Origin: a virus | IMG/VR virus record: IMGVR_UViG_3300017706_001436 | Coordinates: 1-27,883 of that record | Direction: 5' to 3' (one strand) | Length of the DNA: 27,883 bases | In this document: one piece after another, positions 5,086-25,554 of the stretch | Position numbering within the stretch: position 1 is the first letter of the stretch | Layout: every line of letters starts with the position of its first letter | Notes under the pieces: generated by a model | Seen by the model: only the letters and a program-made list of their open reading frames with translations | Databases searched by the model: none | Told to the model about the DNA's origin: nothing | Translations under genes and position numbers: made by a program

Positions 5086-6315
5086 ATGATGGAACTAGCA
5101 TTAATCCGTACTATGTTGGACAAAGAGTTCTACGATAACCACAAGGGTATACGTTGTCCAGATAAGATATTCAGTAAGGATGCACGTAAGATTAAGCAGA
5201 CGCTTGACTACGCTATGGATACATACGGTAAGAACATTACACCTACAGAGTTAGAGTCTTTGTTCTTTGTTAACAATACCAGTATGACTACAGCCAACAA
5301 GCTAGTCTTTAATGAGTTGTTTCAAAAGGTTGCACGAGAGAAGCCACTATCTACAGAGATAGCTGATGATGTATTATCTAAGTTATTTCAACAGGTAGTA
5401 GGTGAAGAAATTGCTAACCTTGGATTTGATTACGTTAACGGTTCACAGTCTAGCTTAGAGCCTCTACGAAACATACTGAGTAATTACCAAGATGATTTCC
5501 TACCCAACCTCAAGGTAGAGTGGGATGATACAAGTATTGATACATTACTAAAAGCCAACGACATACAGTCACAATGGAAGTGGAACATACCTACGCTTAG
5601 GCGTAAGACAGAGGGCATCAGCGCAGGACACCTGGTTGTTGTAGGTGCTAGACCTAACACAGGTAAGACTAGCTTTCACGCTAGTACAATAGCTGCACCT
5701 GATGGCTTTGCTTCACAGGGTGCTAAGTGTATGGTTCTGTGCAATGAAGAAAGTTATGAACGTGTAGGTGCAAGATACCTTAGTGCCGCTACAAGTATGA
5801 GCATGGATGAAGTTAAGACTAACATGGCGGTAGCTGCATTACGTTACAATCCAGTAGAGAAGAACGTGTTTATCAAGGATAGCACAGGTAAAGACATGGC
5901 ATGGGTTGAGGCTATTATCAAAGCATACGAGCCTGACATTGTAGTTCTTGATATGGGTGACAAGTTTGCGTCCAAGACAAGTGATAAGTCAGACATCTAT
6001 CTCAAGGAAGCAGCCATACATGCACGTAACATATCTAAGGAACACAAGTGTGCAATCATATGGATGTCACAGTTGAGTGCAGCAGCAGAAGGTTTAGTAC
6101 ATCCTGATCAATCTATGCTTGAGGGTAGCCGTACTGGTAAAGCAGCGGAAGCTGACTTGATGATACTAATCTCAAAGAACAAAGTGGTTGAAGGACAAGA
6201 TGAAGATGAAAGTAATCAACGGCATCTTTGTATAGCCAAGAACAAACTCAAGGGTGGATGGCATGGTACTATTCACTGTGAGTTAGATGGTGATAGGAGT
6301 CAGTACTTAGCATGA
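5086..6315 (+). CDS. replicative DNA helicase (DnaB / T7 gp4 type)
   Basis: This 409-residue hexameric helicase unwinds the replication fork. A divergent N-terminal domain (about 1-165) precedes a RecA-like motor. The motor shows Walker A GARPNTGKT at 187-195, catalytic E222 in NEES, Walker B IVVLDMGD with D289, the Q-loop IIWMSQLS with Q329, and an arginine-containing EGSRTGKAAEAD segment. It has no primase domain; the primase is the separate gene at 3566. GAGAGGAGA stands five bases before ATG 5086, which I prefer to the upstream TTG. It overlaps the polymerase start by four bases (ATGA), coupling helicase and polymerase synthesis. Confidence 0.93.
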   Translation: MMELALIRTMLDKEFYDNHKGIRCPDKIFSKDARKIKQTLDYAMDTYGKNITPTELESLFFVNNTSMTTANKLVFNELFQKVAREKPLSTEIADDVLSKLFQQVVGEEIANLGFDYVNGSQSSLEPLRNILSNYQDDFLPNLKVEWDDTSIDTLLKANDIQSQWKWNIPTLRRKTEGISAGHLVVVGARPNTGKTSFHASTIAAPDGFASQGAKCMVLCNEESYERVGARYLSAATSMSMDEVKTNMAVAALRYNPVEKNVFIKDSTGKDMAWVEAIIKAYEPDIVVLDMGDKFASKTSDKSDIYLKEAAIHARNISKEHKCAIIWMSQLSAAAEGLVHPDQSMLEGSRTGKAAEADLMILISKNKVVEGQDEDESNQRHLCIAKNKLKGGWHGTIHCELDGDRSQYLA

Positions 6316-8360
6316 GACTTGTAGTTGATGTAGAAAACACAATCACCAAACGAGAGAAGAAGAACATCCTTGATCCGTTTGAACCTGGACTTGAGCTTGT
6401 GCAAGTAGGTATGCAGAATGTAGACAACACTGACGAGACATACCTGTTCACACTTAACCATAAAGAAGATCAAGATGTGGGTGGCTCAAGAGCTAAGAAC
6501 ATACAGATCATACTAGATAACACAACTCTCTTGATAATGCACAATGCACAGCATGACTTGATGTGGCTATGGGAATCAGGATTCAAGTATGACGGTGACA
6601 TCTATGACACGATGTTAGCTGAGTATTTGTTACAGCGTGGGCAGAAAGAACCATTGAGTCTAGAGGCATGTGCTGAACGTAGGAATCTAAACTACCAGAA
6701 GCAAGACACTCTCAAGGAGTATTACAAGAAAGGATACAACACCAATGAAATACCTTTACAAGAGCTTCTTTTTTATCTTAGGAGTGACCTCGACATTACT
6801 CGTGAGTTGTACTTTGCCTTGGAACAAGACTACGCCAAGCCAGAAGCAGAGTCCTTACATAAAGTCAGAAGTATTACCTTCCGCACCTGTAAAGCCCTTA
6901 CCAGAATGTATATGTCAGGATTCAGGGTGGATAGAAACACCTTACAAGAAGTCCGACTAGAGTTTCAACAAGAGAAAGTTCAGATAGAAGACAGGCTACA
7001 ACGCAAGACTCGTGAGCTTATGGGTGACACACCTATCAATCTCAACAGCCCAGAGCAAGCATCTCAAGTTATATTCAGTAGACGTGTGCACAACAAGAAA
7101 GAATGGGCTGACTTGCTTGAATACACTAAAACAAAGAAAGAGTTTGAAACAGTAATAGAAGAAAACAGTTCTGTCATTAGAAAGACTAAAGCATCTACTT
7201 GTCCTGAGTGTAATGGACGTGGCTTAGTACACAAGTTGCGTAAGGATGGTACACTTTACAAGCTACCAACTAAATGTAAGCCATGTGAGGGTAGAGGTTA
7301 TCATCTAAAAGAAATTAACGTAGTAGCAGGGTTGTTATTCAACCCACCAAGTAAGAAGTGGGTAAGCGCAAATGGTTTCAGTACTAGTAAGGGCAACCTT
7401 GAAAGTCTTATGGCTACCGCTACAAGCAACGGCATGGAGTCTGCTCTTGATTTCCTTACTGACCTTAAGCGTTTGTCTGCTATTAGCAGTTACCTTAGTA
7501 GCTTCGTGGATGGTATCGACATATATACCAAGCCCAACGGATTCCTACACGTTAACCTTACCCAAAGTGTTACCAGTACAGGTAGATTTTCTGGACGCAA
7601 TCCCAACATGCAAAACATGCCAAGAGGAGGTACATTCCCAGTGAAGCGTGTGTTCATATCACGATGGGAAGGTGGACAGATAATGGAATGTGACTTTGCT
7701 CAGTTGGAGTTCAGAGTTGCTGCATTCCTCTCACAGGACAGCACAGCCATGCAGGAGATCGAAACAGGATTTGATGTGCACTCCTACACTGCAAAGGTTA
7801 TCAGTGATGCAGGACAGCCTACAGCTAGACAGGCAGCAAAGGAACATACCTTCGCCCCACTCTTCGGAGCTACAGGGTATGGCAGACCCAAGGCTGTAGC
7901 CGCATACTACAAACACTTTAATGAGAAGTATGAGGGTGTAGCTGCATGGCACGAAGAGCTAGCAGATGAAGCTGCTAACTTTGAAAAGATTACTAACAAA
8001 AGTGGAAGACAATATGCATTTCCTGGTGTTACCAGAAGAGCGAATAATAGTGTGACACACTTCACTATGATTAAGAACTACCCTGTCCAAGGATTTGCTA
8101 CAGGTGACATCGTACCTGTTGTACTACTAGAGTTTGAGCGATTGCTTGAGCCGTTACATTCATGTTTAGTCAATACGGTACATGATTCTATGGTGATAGA
8201 TGTACACCCTGATGAAGTAAAAAAAGTTTTGACTATAGTGAATACTATTAACTCTAATCTAAACTGTGTTATAAAAGACGCATACGATGTAGAAATGAAT
8301 GTGCCTTTATTATTAGAAGCTAAAATAGGAAAGAATTGGCTTGACACAGTTGATGTTTAG
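6312..8360 (+). CDS. polA: family A DNA polymerase with exonuclease and DnaJ-type zinc insertion
   Basis: This 682-residue replicative polymerase has an intact 3'-5' exonuclease at about 1-190: D6/E8, NAQHD with D82, and YLRSD with Y155/D159. A zinc insertion at 297-330 has two CxxCxGxG motifs (C297, C300, C322, C325). The palm and fingers follow: motif A CDFAQLEFR (D461), motif B R506, K510, F514, F518 and motif C VHDSMVID (D625). The zinc insertion between exonuclease and polymerase is the known hallmark of HMO-2011-type phages; DnaJ itself has four such motifs. Two stretches use C-ending codons unusually often. A promoter-like sequence overlaps the 3' end. Confidence 0.95.
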   Translation: MRLVVDVENTITKREKKNILDPFEPGLELVQVGMQNVDNTDETYLFTLNHKEDQDVGGSRAKNIQIILDNTTLLIMHNAQHDLMWLWESGFKYDGDIYDTMLAEYLLQRGQKEPLSLEACAERRNLNYQKQDTLKEYYKKGYNTNEIPLQELLFYLRSDLDITRELYFALEQDYAKPEAESLHKVRSITFRTCKALTRMYMSGFRVDRNTLQEVRLEFQQEKVQIEDRLQRKTRELMGDTPINLNSPEQASQVIFSRRVHNKKEWADLLEYTKTKKEFETVIEENSSVIRKTKASTCPECNGRGLVHKLRKDGTLYKLPTKCKPCEGRGYHLKEINVVAGLLFNPPSKKWVSANGFSTSKGNLESLMATATSNGMESALDFLTDLKRLSAISSYLSSFVDGIDIYTKPNGFLHVNLTQSVTSTGRFSGRNPNMQNMPRGGTFPVKRVFISRWEGGQIMECDFAQLEFRVAAFLSQDSTAMQEIETGFDVHSYTAKVISDAGQPTARQAAKEHTFAPLFGATGYGRPKAVAAYYKHFNEKYEGVAAWHEELADEAANFEKITNKSGRQYAFPGVTRRANNSVTHFTMIKNYPVQGFATGDIVPVVLLEFERLLEPLHSCLVNTVHDSMVIDVHPDEVKKVLTIVNTINSNLNCVIKDAYDVEMNVPLLLEAKIGKNWLDTVDV

Positions 8361-20582: not shown

Positions 20583-21026
20583 TTATTTAGTGAATCCTGC
20601 GCCAAAGTATAATCCTACAATGGCTGATACAATGTGTGTGTCTAGTGGTGTGATTACAAAGCCTTGTGCCATCTTCCACTGTATAGCTTCGTTTGGCCCA
20701 AACAACCAATTCATAAAACCACCAGTAGCTTCAGTGTATCCTACATACACACTTACCTCAGGATACCATACTGCGACTAGCTTTGGCAATACAATTATTG
20801 AAAACACAGCAGATAAAGCTATAAGCCTACGTGTCCACGCAAAGTGTGAATCATTCTTACCTGCGTCACGAGCATCCTTTACTGCAGACCTCCTGAAGTT
20901 AGCACGTTCCATGAGCATGTCATTCTGTGCTTGCTTAGACTTTATTGATTGGCCCCATATAGACATTACTCCACCTAGTATAGTGGAGAAAAGCATGGTG
21001 ATTAGTTCTAGTGGTAGTCCAAACAT
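20583..21026 (-). CDS. three-helix membrane protein, holin candidate, 147 aa
   Basis: Three membrane segments can be seen: residues 4-24 (LPLELITMLFSTILGGVMSI), about 67-88 (LIALSAVFSIIVLPKLVAVW) and about 126-145 (PLDTHIVSAIVGLYFGAGF). A charged stretch (RRSAVKDARDAGKNDSHFAW) separates the first two. Its ATG shares a base with the stop of the lysozyme-like gene (TAATG), so the two are translationally coupled. A 3TM holin-like function is therefore reasonable. It could equally be a virion membrane component; no diagnostic holin motif is present. Confidence 0.7.
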   Translation of the reverse strand: MFGLPLELITMLFSTILGGVMSIWGQSIKSKQAQNDMLMERANFRRSAVKDARDAGKNDSHFAWTRRLIALSAVFSIIVLPKLVAVWYPEVSVYVGYTEATGGFMNWLFGPNEAIQWKMAQGFVITPLDTHIVSAIVGLYFGAGFTK

Positions 21027-22213
21027 TATAGTGGTGGCCTCTCCATTGCTCCTGCAGGTTTTCTTCTAGGACGAGGCGATTCACTTACTTGGCCTAGCAT
21101 TTTAAGTGATCCCTCTACTTTATTTAGAATATCTTTTGTTTCTTCTATTGTGTGCTGTGCTGAATTACCGCCACTAATACCTTCACTGTAATAAGAATCT
21201 CCTGCTTTTAAATCAACTTTAGGCCAAGGATTTTTAGTGGTAGGGTTAGGATTTTTTGGAATATCAAAGGGTACTGGCACTGAAGCAAACTCTTTTGCTA
21301 ATGCTAACATAGCATCATTAACATTTGATTTTTTAATAGTTTTATTATCTTGATATAACCAAGTCTGTAATTTTCTTCCTACTTTATCTGTTAATAGATA
21401 CGTACCCATCTTTTCCTGTAGATCAGATGTAAAAACTTGTATATCAGATAAATTCATTTTTTCAACAACTAAATCAAATGTTTTAGGTATAAACTGAAAC
21501 TTACCTACAGCAAAAAGTCTATCTTTGTCTTCTATAGATAAATCCATATATTCTTTTATTTCTCCTACAGTGAGCTCTGTTAACTTTTTACCATCTCTAG
21601 TTGTTGCACTAGTAGAGTTTTGTATTTTACCTCCTATAGTGCCACTATGAGAAGATTCATAACCTCCCTCACCCTTGCCTATAAAGTTAAGGAGGTCATT
21701 AACTTTCCCATCGGTAGGCTGCACCCCTTCAGCAGGAGTATCAGAGTCAACATCACCAACAGTTTCATTTATAATTTCCTTATCTACAGGGGGAGCCATT
21801 AATCCTTTACTTGATGTAATATCACTTTGATTAGACATTATTTCTTTAATAAGACTATCTGGTTCAATAAGCTCTGGTTCAATTGGCTTATCAGCCACTG
21901 TTTCAATTATAGGCTCTGACTCAAGGGTAATTGTAGGTAAAGCATCTGTTGTCATATCAACAGTAGGCATCTCTGGCATTGGCATATCCTGCAAAGATAT
22001 ACGCAACTCCTCACGAGCTTCCTCTACTTTACGTTCAGTATCATTCCACCAATCAGAAAAGAACTGCATTATACCAGAAGAGTCTTCATCCTCTTTAGTA
22101 AAAATACCAGTATCGTTTGACTTCTTGTTTAACTCAGCGTCACGAATATCTTGAAAATATTCTAGTAACTCTAGTGGGTCTGTTGTCTTTGGTGGATCTA
22201 TAAGACCTGCCAT
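21026..22213 (-). CDS. lysozyme/transglycosylase-like protein, 395 aa
   Basis: The first 170 residues are acidic and low-complexity (EMPTVDMTTDALPTITLESE), like a flexible or virion-attachment region. A lysozyme-like domain follows, with LLNFIGKGEGGYESS (E182 is the likely catalytic Glu), then LFAVGKFQFIPKTFD, the pattern of phage lysozyme and lytic transglycosylase folds. A Pro/Arg-rich tail ends the protein. It should cleave peptidoglycan, either for entry as a virion enzyme or for lysis. There is no signal peptide. AGGAG lies ten bases upstream, and it is coupled to the membrane protein gene that follows. Confidence 0.8.
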   Translation of the reverse strand: MAGLIDPPKTTDPLELLEYFQDIRDAELNKKSNDTGIFTKEDEDSSGIMQFFSDWWNDTERKVEEAREELRISLQDMPMPEMPTVDMTTDALPTITLESEPIIETVADKPIEPELIEPDSLIKEIMSNQSDITSSKGLMAPPVDKEIINETVGDVDSDTPAEGVQPTDGKVNDLLNFIGKGEGGYESSHSGTIGGKIQNSTSATTRDGKKLTELTVGEIKEYMDLSIEDKDRLFAVGKFQFIPKTFDLVVEKMNLSDIQVFTSDLQEKMGTYLLTDKVGRKLQTWLYQDNKTIKKSNVNDAMLALAKEFASVPVPFDIPKNPNPTTKNPWPKVDLKAGDSYYSEGISGGNSAQHTIEETKDILNKVEGSLKMLGQVSESPRPRRKPAGAMERPPL

Positions 22214-22233: not shown

Positions 22234-25200
22234 TCATCCTGCTATTGAAATAGGTACATTTAATATTTTACTCAGAAAGAATTTTGAAGCTGTAGCAGTA
22301 AGTGCACCCATAGCTGTACCTTTTACTGTATCTGCTTGCGCTTTGTTATTAAGTTCTGCTACTGTTATAGCACTTTCACGTTGTAACAAACTTTCCGTTG
22401 AACGCCACGCATAATCTAGTATATCACGTTCAGCTTGTATCATGTTAGCATAAGCTTGCATAGTTAAATTATTTTTAGCCATAACACCTTCACGTATAGC
22501 TTGATTATCTGCTGCAGTATCTGCTGTTGCAATAGCTTGCTGCCACGCTGCATTAGACTGTGCGATAATCAAAGAGTTCTGTGCATTGAATTGATCACGA
22601 GCATTTTGTTGTGCAGTGTTAAACTGCTCTATAGCATTCTCTTCACCTGCATTAAACATAGCGATAGCATTCTGTTGTTCAGAATTAAATTTATCAATGT
22701 CATTAGAGATGTTAGCTATAAACTGATCAAGCTGATTCTGACTTGCTGCATTAAATTGTGACTTTGCATTTTCTGCTCCTGCATCACTAAGTATAGAATT
22801 GACTAACGCTTGTGTCTTAAATATAGCAGCTTGTTGTTCGTTAGATAAGTTAGACATATCTGTTTGTAAGAATGCTTCAGCTTTTTGTACGTTAGCTTTC
22901 ATATTGTTTGACAAGTTAGTTACATCTATCTGAGACATAGCTGCTGCATCAGCTAACACTTTAGCACTTGATGAATTTAGATTAGCTATATCTGTAGTGC
23001 TTGTAATACGTGCATTCTCTAGTGCTACTTGCTGTTCTGCAGTAAAGTTCATATTAGCAATGTCAGCTATCTTAGCAGCATTTTGAACTCGTGTCTGGAA
23101 TGCTTGATCAAACTCCATACCTAAGAACTTAGCACGTTGCTCTGCAGCAAACATGGCAGTCTGCTGTCTGTTAGACAAGTTCTGAGCTTCAAAACCTGCT
23201 ACCGTCTGTGCATCTTGCATAGCTATAGGTAATGCGGATTCCATAGCAGCTTGTACAATAGCTTGTGCTGCTAAACTAGAAGAGCCTAGACCTCTTGCAG
23301 ACATAGCTGCTGCAGCAGTACGCATAGCACCTGCAGCCCAGGCAGGAGGTTCCCCACCTTCAAAGTCAGCCATGAGTTTAGTTAACTGCCCTTGTACAGT
23401 AGCATCTGTAGATGGTGCACCAGTAGCAGCTTCAAAGTTAACTGCTTCCTTTACACGATCCATATCAACTGTTGGACCTTCTATCATCTCACCTGTCATC
23501 TCTACACGTTTATCAGGAGCCTGTACTTGAATAGCTTCTTCAATCTGTGCAGCAGTTAATCCTAGCTGTGCTAGTTCTTGAGGTGACATATTAGCAGCTT
23601 CTGCAAGAGCTTCTGTGCTTGGCTTACCTGTTGCCGCTACTAATGTGTTTACTGTAGTTTTTACATCAGCTTCTGTTGCTGTTACTGTAGCTTCTGTAAC
23701 TTCAGGTACTACTTGATCATCTATATCCGTAGGTACTGCAGCTTTTTCAGCAGCAGCTTGTTCAGCTATAGCTGCAGCAGCCCCTTCTTCATCAGCAATC
23801 TTTTGTGCTTCGGTTTGTTTTATTTTTGATGCATTAGCTTGTCTTACAATACTACCAGGATCGGCAAAGGATTTGTAACGTATACCCTCAGTAGTGAACT
23901 CACCCTCAGTACCTTCTAATGTTGGTGACTTGTATTCATACTCTGCAGCGCCAGGTAAGTCATATTCTTTTGCTTGGAATAAACCCATTGCTTTTTCTGC
24001 AGAGGCAAAATCACTAAATGTTTGTACAGACCCTTCAGGTGAGATAACTTTGTATGTAGTAGTTTTTGTACTTGGATCAAATACAGAAGATATTGATGCC
24101 CCTGTAGTTGTAGTTACAAGAGAAGTTTCTACAGGACTATCGGGTGTTTTCATAGACTCTTCAGCAGAATTTCCTGAAAAAGTAAAGCCATTAGATTTAG
24201 CCCAAAAATCTAAGTCGCTCAAACCTGAACTTTCTCCCCCTCTAGGAGAGCCTGGTATTCTATCACCGTTTTTGTCAACCATCTCAAATACGCCAGGAGA
24301 GATTTCTACTACAGTTACAACACCATAATTAGTAATATTATCAAATATTAACTGATCTGCAGTTTGTTTTGCTAAAAGATCTTCAATGTTTTTAGTATCA
24401 ATACCTGCTTCGTTAGCAATTTCAATTGTAACTTGTTCTGTTGAACCATCACCATAAGTTACGGTAACAACACCAGGAATAATATTGCCATCTTCTCCGA
24501 TAGCAGGTGCACTATTAGTTACAACCTTATCATTTATAGTAGGTAAAGTAGGTCCATCACCTTCATCACCACCTTCACCTTCTGTTGGTTCACCACCTTC
24601 ACCTTCTGTTGGTTCACCATCTTCACCTTCTGTTGGAGTAGGAGCAGTTCCTGGTGCATAAGCTTTTCCATCAACAAACTCCCAACCATACTTCTCAACA
24701 AGTACCTTGTCAATACCTGTAGGTTCAGCACTAGGTTCTGGAGCAGGAGTTGGAGCAGGAGTTGGGGCTTCTGGTGCAGTGCCTGGTGCATAAGATTTAT
24801 CTGTAGCAGGATCATAAGTCCAACCATACTTATCAACAAGTATCTTGTTAATGCCTGTGGGTTGGGGAGTTGGCTCTGGTTCGGGAGTTGCAGGAGCATC
24901 TGGTGCAGGAGCATCTGGTGCAGGAGCAGGTGTAGCTGCAGGAGTTGGTGCTTTACCTGGAGGATAAGCTTTTCCATCTACCATTTCGTAACCATATTTT
25001 TCTACAAGTACCTTATCAATGGCAGCTTGGTTTGATGTAGCAGCAGGAGCAGGTGTAGCAGCAGGAGCAGGTGTAGCAGCAGGAGCAGGTGTAGCAGCAG
25101 GAGCAGGAGTTGCAGCAGGAGCAGGAGTTGCAGCAGGAGCAGGAGTTGCAGCAGGAGCAGGTTCTGGTGTAGCAACCCCAGAGTCTGCAGCAGGAGCAGG

Positions 25201-25554
25201 TGTAGCAGCAGGTGTAGGAGCAGGTGTAGCAACCCCAGAGTCTGCAGCAGGAGCAGGTGTAGCAGCAGGTGTAGGAGCAAAATATTTACCATCCTGCATA
25301 GTGTACCCATATGTATCCATGAGTACTTTACCGATACCTGCAGTTGTAGATATACCACCTCCCTTAAAACCTTTTGAGCCAATATCTATTCGTGCTCTTG
25401 CTATATCTGCAGAACGTCCAAGCATTGATGCAGCTTTAGGGTTAGACATAACAAACTTATTTATGTCATCCTGTTGGGCAGGACCAGTATAACCTAAAGG
25501 CCCAAGCAATTTCTTTTGTTGTTCTGTTGTAAAACCTGCAAACTTTTTAGCCAT
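22234..25554 (-). CDS. large repeat-rich virion protein, 1106 aa
   Basis: This is a modular protein. Four copies of a ~25-residue unit (core IDKVLVEKYGW..VDGKAYAPG) occur at about 71-94, 177-200, 232-259 and 278-303. They are joined by Pro/Ala linkers (AATPAP repeats) and followed by an acidic EPTEGEGG repeat. A beta-rich middle (about 338-560) precedes an Ala/Glu-rich link. The conserved-looking C-terminal part (about 755-1106) has GLGSSSLAAQAI and 11-residue helical repeats (SQFNAASQNQL and similar). Proteins with this kind of C-terminal region are common virion components of marine phages; function is unproven. TAAGGA lies upstream of the ATG. Confidence 0.8.
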   Translation of the reverse strand: MAKKFAGFTTEQQKKLLGPLGYTGPAQQDDINKFVMSNPKAASMLGRSADIARARIDIGSKGFKGGGISTTAGIGKVLMDTYGYTMQDGKYFAPTPAATPAPAADSGVATPAPTPAATPAPAADSGVATPEPAPAATPAPAATPAPAATPAPAATPAPAATPAPAATPAPAATSNQAAIDKVLVEKYGYEMVDGKAYPPGKAPTPAATPAPAPDAPAPDAPATPEPEPTPQPTGINKILVDKYGWTYDPATDKSYAPGTAPEAPTPAPTPAPEPSAEPTGIDKVLVEKYGWEFVDGKAYAPGTAPTPTEGEDGEPTEGEGGEPTEGEGGDEGDGPTLPTINDKVVTNSAPAIGEDGNIIPGVVTVTYGDGSTEQVTIEIANEAGIDTKNIEDLLAKQTADQLIFDNITNYGVVTVVEISPGVFEMVDKNGDRIPGSPRGGESSGLSDLDFWAKSNGFTFSGNSAEESMKTPDSPVETSLVTTTTGASISSVFDPSTKTTTYKVISPEGSVQTFSDFASAEKAMGLFQAKEYDLPGAAEYEYKSPTLEGTEGEFTTEGIRYKSFADPGSIVRQANASKIKQTEAQKIADEEGAAAAIAEQAAAEKAAVPTDIDDQVVPEVTEATVTATEADVKTTVNTLVAATGKPSTEALAEAANMSPQELAQLGLTAAQIEEAIQVQAPDKRVEMTGEMIEGPTVDMDRVKEAVNFEAATGAPSTDATVQGQLTKLMADFEGGEPPAWAAGAMRTAAAAMSARGLGSSSLAAQAIVQAAMESALPIAMQDAQTVAGFEAQNLSNRQQTAMFAAEQRAKFLGMEFDQAFQTRVQNAAKIADIANMNFTAEQQVALENARITSTTDIANLNSSSAKVLADAAAMSQIDVTNLSNNMKANVQKAEAFLQTDMSNLSNEQQAAIFKTQALVNSILSDAGAENAKSQFNAASQNQLDQFIANISNDIDKFNSEQQNAIAMFNAGEENAIEQFNTAQQNARDQFNAQNSLIIAQSNAAWQQAIATADTAADNQAIREGVMAKNNLTMQAYANMIQAERDILDYAWRSTESLLQRESAITVAELNNKAQADTVKGTAMGALTATASKFFLSKILNVPISIAG
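22564..22761 (-). repeat. 33-base-period repeat coding 11-residue helical units
   Basis: Six consecutive 11-residue units (SQFNAASQNQL, DQFIANISNDI, DKFNSEQQNAI, AMFNAGEENAI, EQFNTAQQNAR, DQFNAQNSLII) lie at residues 932-997 of the 1106-residue protein. Related 22-24-residue units (D-x-x-N-L/M) extend upstream to about residue 831. The spacing fits a hendecad coiled coil. The DNA copies are diverged, so this is a protein-level repeat. Confidence 0.75.
24862..25278 (-). repeat. Pro/Ala-coding minisatellite (18-base and 57-base units)
   Basis: Inside the 1106-residue gene, about six to seven tandem 18-base units encoding AATPAP occupy roughly 25038-25165. Two near-identical 57-base units, each containing CCCCAGAGTCTGCAGCAGG in plus orientation, follow to 25278 and encode ADSGVATP-type linkers. 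Shorter related Pro/Ala stretches continue down to 24862. Unit lengths are multiples of three, so copy-number change keeps the frame. Confidence 0.85.

Follow-up and report, generated by a model that had tools for sequence, protein, structure and literature searches.

A predicted lipoprotein gene overprinted in the DNA polymerase gene of HMO-2011-type phages, and its possible role in lysis

Does an open +1 frame inside the DNA polymerase gene of a phage encode a protein of its own and, if so, what might that protein do? The question is raised by a 27,883-nucleotide stretch of viral DNA, here called the window, which is half of an HMO-2011-type phage genome, with replication genes on the plus strand and structural and lysis genes on the minus strand. 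The frame in question is located in the replication module, apart from the lysis genes. The structural module also encodes, at 22234-25554, a large protein that has, close to the N-terminus, long repeats of the (TPAPAA)n type.

Direct reading of the sequence confirms most of what a first-pass annotation had described at this locus: a +1 frame of 71 codons that starts at ATG 6745 (and ends in a TAG at 6958-6960), a lipoprotein signal with LVSC, and an AAAGGA about ten bases upstream (Table 1). The product reads MKYLYKSFFFILGVTSTLLVSC followed by TLPWNKTTPSQKQSPYIKSEVLPSAPVKPLPECICQDSGWIETPYKKSD; it has a basic start and a hydrophobic core, and reaches LVSC at residues 19-22. The tail is moderately rich in proline. 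One feature was overstated: third-position C, which had been called unusually frequent in these polymerase codons, is at 28% compared with 21% gene-wide, with 92 of 610 windows scoring higher. A low-confidence AlphaFold model gives a helix at residues 2-22, corresponding to the signal peptide, and coil elsewhere, and the mature tail is predicted to be disordered. A C-terminal transmembrane (TM) segment, which a unimolecular spanin (u-spanin) has in addition to a lipobox, was looked for in the embedded ORF and none was found. The CxC pair is present in most members of the family and absent from one sublineage (L392-L411).

Table 1. Coordinates of the features discussed in the text, numbered from the first base of the window.
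Feature	Position	Strand	Description
Host gene, family A DNA polymerase	6312..8360	+	682 aa; Pfam DNA_pol_A 2e-48, 3'-5' exonuclease 4e-8
Shine-Dalgarno-like AAAGGA	6729..6734	+	ATG 10 nt downstream
Overprinted ORF, predicted lipoprotein	6745..6960	+	71 aa, polymerase +1 frame; read directly, relatives, synonymous suppression
Signal peptide and lipobox	6745..6810	+	ORF residues 1-22; LVSC; Cys22 is the predicted lipidation site
Predicted mature tail	6811..6957	+	After Cys22; moderately Pro-rich, unstructured, Cys55-x-Cys57
Holin-like membrane protein	20583..21026	-	147 aa; TM1, TM2, hydrophobic C-terminal helix; co-occurs with embedded ORF
Endolysin-like gene	21026..22213	-	Adjoins holin-like gene; PHROG endolysin family 5.7e-17

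Relatives of the polymerase were gathered from viral contigs and isolates, and we refer to those with the embedded ORF as ORF+ and to those without it as ORF-. The +1 frame is conserved in more than 100 distinct relatives. Within the window's own clade it is open and carries a lipobox in nearly all sequences, and frame, lipobox and Shine-Dalgarno sequence are retained at polymerase identities of only 64-70%. Among pairs of relatives, the ratio of observed to expected synonymous differences (O/E) is 0.65 (z -13) over polymerase codons 146-211, which is the minimum among all 66-codon windows; the next non-overlapping one stands at 0.86. Under the signal peptide, at codons 146-168, close relatives show 3 synonymous differences where 69.2 are expected, and the ratio of third-position to first-position changes is 0.42, compared with 2.7-3.9 in neighbouring ordinary stretches. 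Such a low ratio fits +1 coding, because each third position of a polymerase codon is also a second position in the embedded frame. A control is provided by the HMO-2011 clade: there the +1 frame is closed in 79 of 79 sequences, and codons 146-168 show no suppression (synonymous O/E 1.13, position ratio 1.12). The synonymous-site comparison that the first-pass annotation had proposed thus finds suppression at the embedded ORF and none in the closed-frame clade, with frame, start and lipobox kept rather than lost amid normal synonymous variation. We conclude that purifying selection acts on the +1 frame at 6745-6960.

The same constraint can be followed codon by codon. A lipobox of the form L-x-[S/G/A/N]-C, mostly LVSC, occurs in 129 of 129 ORF+ sequences. 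The codon for polymerase Leu166 must end in G, because the lipobox cysteine depends on that base, and it does so in all 129, compared with 44 of 84 ORF- sequences and with 22% of all leucine codons in the same ORF+ genes. Similarly, Asn145 must be encoded by AAT because the embedded start codon overlaps there, and AAT is found in 114 of 125 sequences, compared with 41% gene-wide. Upstream of the start, 88% of ORF+ sequences have AAGGA, compared with 7% of ORF- sequences, and the codon for Gly141 is GGA in 69% of ORF+ sequences versus 24% gene-wide. In 11 variants the embedded start codon is ACG, and in all 11 an ATG of the same frame lies 14 codons before it, compared with 28 of 117 non-ACG sequences (Fisher 7e-7, a nominal value, since the sequences are related).

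The ORF at 6745-6960 is almost certainly a genuine overprinted protein-coding gene, whose translation we infer. Synonymous suppression by itself is not proof of a protein, and an RNA or DNA element within the polymerase gene could also cause it. We consider such an element very improbable, given that polymerase first positions are free while third positions are fixed, which is the pattern of +1 coding, that the frame stays open, and that every ACG-start sequence examined has an upstream in-frame ATG. When the window polymerase is recoded at random using its own codon usage, all 71 +1 codons are open in 0.3% of trials, and an open frame with both ATG and lipobox arises in 0.003% (3e-5). That the frame is open by chance, through the composition of the polymerase, with its conservation imposed by the polymerase protein, is scarcely credible: further +1 stretches are also open, and conserved polymerase residues account in part for CxC and SGW at the C-terminus, but this reading, which had earlier been treated as a serious alternative, is already refuted by the synonymous-site test (3 changes versus 69, with inverted codon-position rates, neither seen in the control clade), and conservation in relatives, the G-ending Leu166 and the rarity of the combined features in random recoding also speak against it. 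The other open +1 patches that had raised concern do exist, but the strongest of them, over codons 354-404, shows no selection on the +1 frame. It is marked by a weaker synonymous dip (O/E 0.58), in close relatives only, over a hydrophobic +1 ORF (7372-7644). We rejected that ORF as a second gene, since its NN/NS of 1.68 indicates no purifying selection and stops interrupt it in other relatives.

The product of the embedded gene is very probably a lipoprotein, for which lipidation and outer-membrane sorting are predicted from the signal sequence. Searches of Pfam, PHROG and NCBIfam with the window protein returned no family; among 15 members, one (not the window protein) has a weak PHROG match to 'Rz-like spanin' (E=0.005). 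No standalone homologue was found in other phages, the sole three phage records found being the embedded copies in the isolates CRP-2, CRP-603 and CRP-207, whose polymerase genes are annotated without mention of it. A six-frame lipoprotein scan, which is imperfect in that it picked up neither the CRP-207 embedded ORF nor the u-spanin of CRP-1, returned no credible lipoprotein other than the embedded ORF in the window, in CRP-603 and in most near-complete ORF+ genomes; the remaining matches were for the most part antisense or started at GTG or TTG. The scan found no credible lipoprotein in CRP-4, CRP-5 and CRP-7, which have the same holin-like gene, nor in HMO-2011 and G013-G015. Judging from the lipoprotein-free scans of CRP-4, CRP-5, CRP-7 and HMO-2011, a lipoprotein is therefore not universally needed, and may be dispensable for outer-membrane lysis in the hosts concerned. 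CRP-207 has a second lipoprotein-like ORF alongside the embedded one (L252:48057-48272, minus strand), with a GTG start and an LLAGC box.

What might such a lipoprotein do? The window's holin-like and endolysin-like genes lie 12 kb from the embedded ORF, on the opposite strand. The product of the first, a conserved membrane protein, looks like a holin, and its AlphaFold model is of low confidence; the gene stands beside varied endolysins in unrelated phages. It is present in 37 of 37 ORF+ contigs that cover the lysis locus (in G006 and G041 partially, at contig ends) and in 0 of 18 ORF- contigs, a co-inheritance that rests on two phylogenetically independent contrasts. The ORF- genomes G016 and G044, which fall within the ORF+ clade, have kept the endolysin and the flanking gene and are missing the holin-like gene between them. 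We conclude that the embedded ORF is inherited together with the holin-like lysis gene. CRP-345 and CRP-1, which are without the embedded ORF, have a unimolecular spanin beside the endolysin; CRP-1 and the ORF+ phage CRP-2 have the same host strain. The CRP-1 protein, gp54 (L253:44786-45127, minus strand), is a homologue of the CRP-345 u-spanin that is annotated as hypothetical.

The account that we favour, and hold to be somewhat probable as a whole, is as follows. A single overprinting event in the polymerase of one large HMO-2011-type phage clade would have produced the gene, which would be translated from its own start on the polymerase message, by way of an internal Shine-Dalgarno sequence. 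Its product, once exported and lipidated at Cys22, would be sorted to the outer membrane and extend a short flexible tail into the periplasm. The protein would most likely disrupt the outer membrane at lysis, in the manner of an outer-membrane spanin (o-spanin), together with the distant holin-like/endolysin pair. Taken separately, the o-spanin-like role is one towards which we lean slightly. We do so because the protein is the sole credible lipoprotein of the window and of most near-complete ORF+ genomes, because the holin-like gene divides ORF+ from ORF- contigs completely, because G016 and G044 are without both genes, and because the ORF- phages CRP-1 and CRP-345 have a u-spanin in its stead beside the endolysin.

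The likeness to a spanin, already pointed out in the first-pass annotation, is supported by co-inheritance with a lysis gene, but no gene for an inner-membrane spanin (i-spanin), a protein with an N-terminal TM segment and a periplasmic domain whose gene usually adjoins or overlaps that of the o-spanin, was found adjoining the embedded ORF, and the likeness is offered as a suggestion. Coiled-coil proteins with an N-terminal TM segment (gp76-like and gp73-like) occur in many ORF+ genomes, and also in CRP-345, CRP-13, CRP-7 and CRP-4. We considered the protein resembling CRP-603 gp76 as an i-spanin, since it co-occurs widely and, in CRP-4 and CRP-7, is encoded close to the holin-like gene; because the ORF- phage CRP-345 has it too, we did not adopt it as the partner. 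In CRP-4 (L446:15334-16385) and CRP-7 (L449:47723-48766) the holin-like gene is followed by two small N-terminal-TM coiled-coil proteins, possibly a lysis cassette with i-spanin-like proteins in genomes for which the scan gives no credible lipoprotein. CRP-207 gp73 (L252:46124-46705), labelled 'putative lysozyme', has no lysozyme family match and resembles an N-terminal-TM coiled-coil protein.

The gene could also be real and serve some other envelope function, for instance in the timing of lysis, in regulating the holin or the endolysin, or in association with the virion. The specificity of the co-inheritance is in keeping with this, the holin-like gene alone being lost with the ORF while the endolysin is retained in G016 and G044; we nevertheless judge it unlikely, as nothing positive speaks for any particular alternative. 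Alternatively, a real outer-membrane lipoprotein might act early in infection, in superinfection exclusion or receptor masking, like Llp of T5. Its place in the replication module, expected to be expressed ahead of the structural genes, and its small size without an obvious i-spanin partner would suit such a role. However, exclusion proteins that are specific to a receptor are expected to turn over, whereas this ORF is unusually stable across many lineages, and it is co-inherited with a holin-like gene, with both missing from two ORF- genomes of the clade; we regard early action as quite unlikely.

In phage lambda, the o-spanin Rz1 is encoded inside the Rz gene, in its +1 frame. The candidate lysis lipoprotein is similar to Rz1 in being a short outer-membrane-type lipoprotein, encoded in an embedded +1 gene, with an unstructured, proline-containing tail that includes cysteine. 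It differs in that its host gene is a DNA polymerase rather than the i-spanin Rz, that it lies 12 kb from the lysis genes on the other strand, that no Rz partner was found, and that it has no detected sequence family match. The mature tail of Rz1 is reported to be disordered, as is predicted here; a periplasmic cysteine occurs in the spanin pair in 507 of 528 systems; and o-spanins embedded within i-spanin genes are known and often overlooked in annotation (PMC6139136). The T4 spanins PseT.2/PseT.3 are not near the T4 holin and endolysin (PMC6139136), and so resemble the present gene as a lipoprotein lysis gene unlinked to both, although they form a pair of separate genes and ours is a single overprinted candidate. 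The sgl lysis genes of ssRNA phages often lie within rep, the RNA replicase gene, in its +1 frame, and have been lost and regained (PMC7693330). There, as is proposed here, a lysis-type gene arose by +1-frame overprinting of a phage polymerase gene and was lost in particular lineages; but the sgl products are single-gene lysis proteins and belong to RNA phages, and ours is predicted to be a lipoprotein, in a dsDNA phage that has its own holin and endolysin. The u-spanins CRP-345 gp68 and CRP-1 gp54 are likewise lipoproteins of the same phage group, presumed to disrupt the outer membrane; unlike the embedded ORF, they are encoded by ordinary genes adjoining the endolysin, have a C-terminal membrane segment, and are present where the embedded ORF is absent.

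A search of the literature returned no report of a lipoprotein or lysis gene overprinted in the DNA polymerase of a tailed dsDNA phage, and the passages searched of papers on HMO-2011-type and RCA phages do not mention an embedded lipoprotein. Should the lysis reading be correct, these phages would have a spanin, either two-component or lone, encoded at least 12 kb from the other lysis genes on the opposite strand, and it would supply the missing outer-membrane lysis step for abundant marine phages. Annotation pipelines, and diversity studies based on the polymerase, would be missing a second gene in their marker region.

As regards the origin of the gene, all ORF+ sequences fall in one clade of the polymerase tree (support 100 and 96 in two trees). 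Presence and absence of the ORF require 3 changes, or 4 with more loss lineages in the tree, and the simplest reading is one gain followed by a few losses; the most basal ORF- rows (L379 and the L374 group) could be primary absences rather than losses. At the site of the start codon the sister clade has Arg-Asp and the ORF+ clade Asn-Glu; the start codon therefore came with an amino-acid change. The fullest version of the history, that the gene was born once de novo in the polymerase, serves as these phages' sole lipoprotein spanin component, and was lost with the holin gene where lysis systems changed, strikes us as evenly balanced between true and false. If it is true, the clade offers a well-sampled example of a gene born de novo inside a core replication gene, and its origin, maintenance and losses can be seen on one tree. 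The ORF- lineages inside the clade include L310, L338, L366, L374 and L379. Several sequences in or beside the ORF+ clade (L043, L048, L054, L365-L368, L373-L375 and L379) have stops in the +1 frame and are useful for dating losses. The ribonucleotide reductase of G016 (contig positions 14555-16558; L307, L308) is 26-29% identical to those of its relatives, and was apparently replaced in the same lineage as the loss of the embedded ORF.
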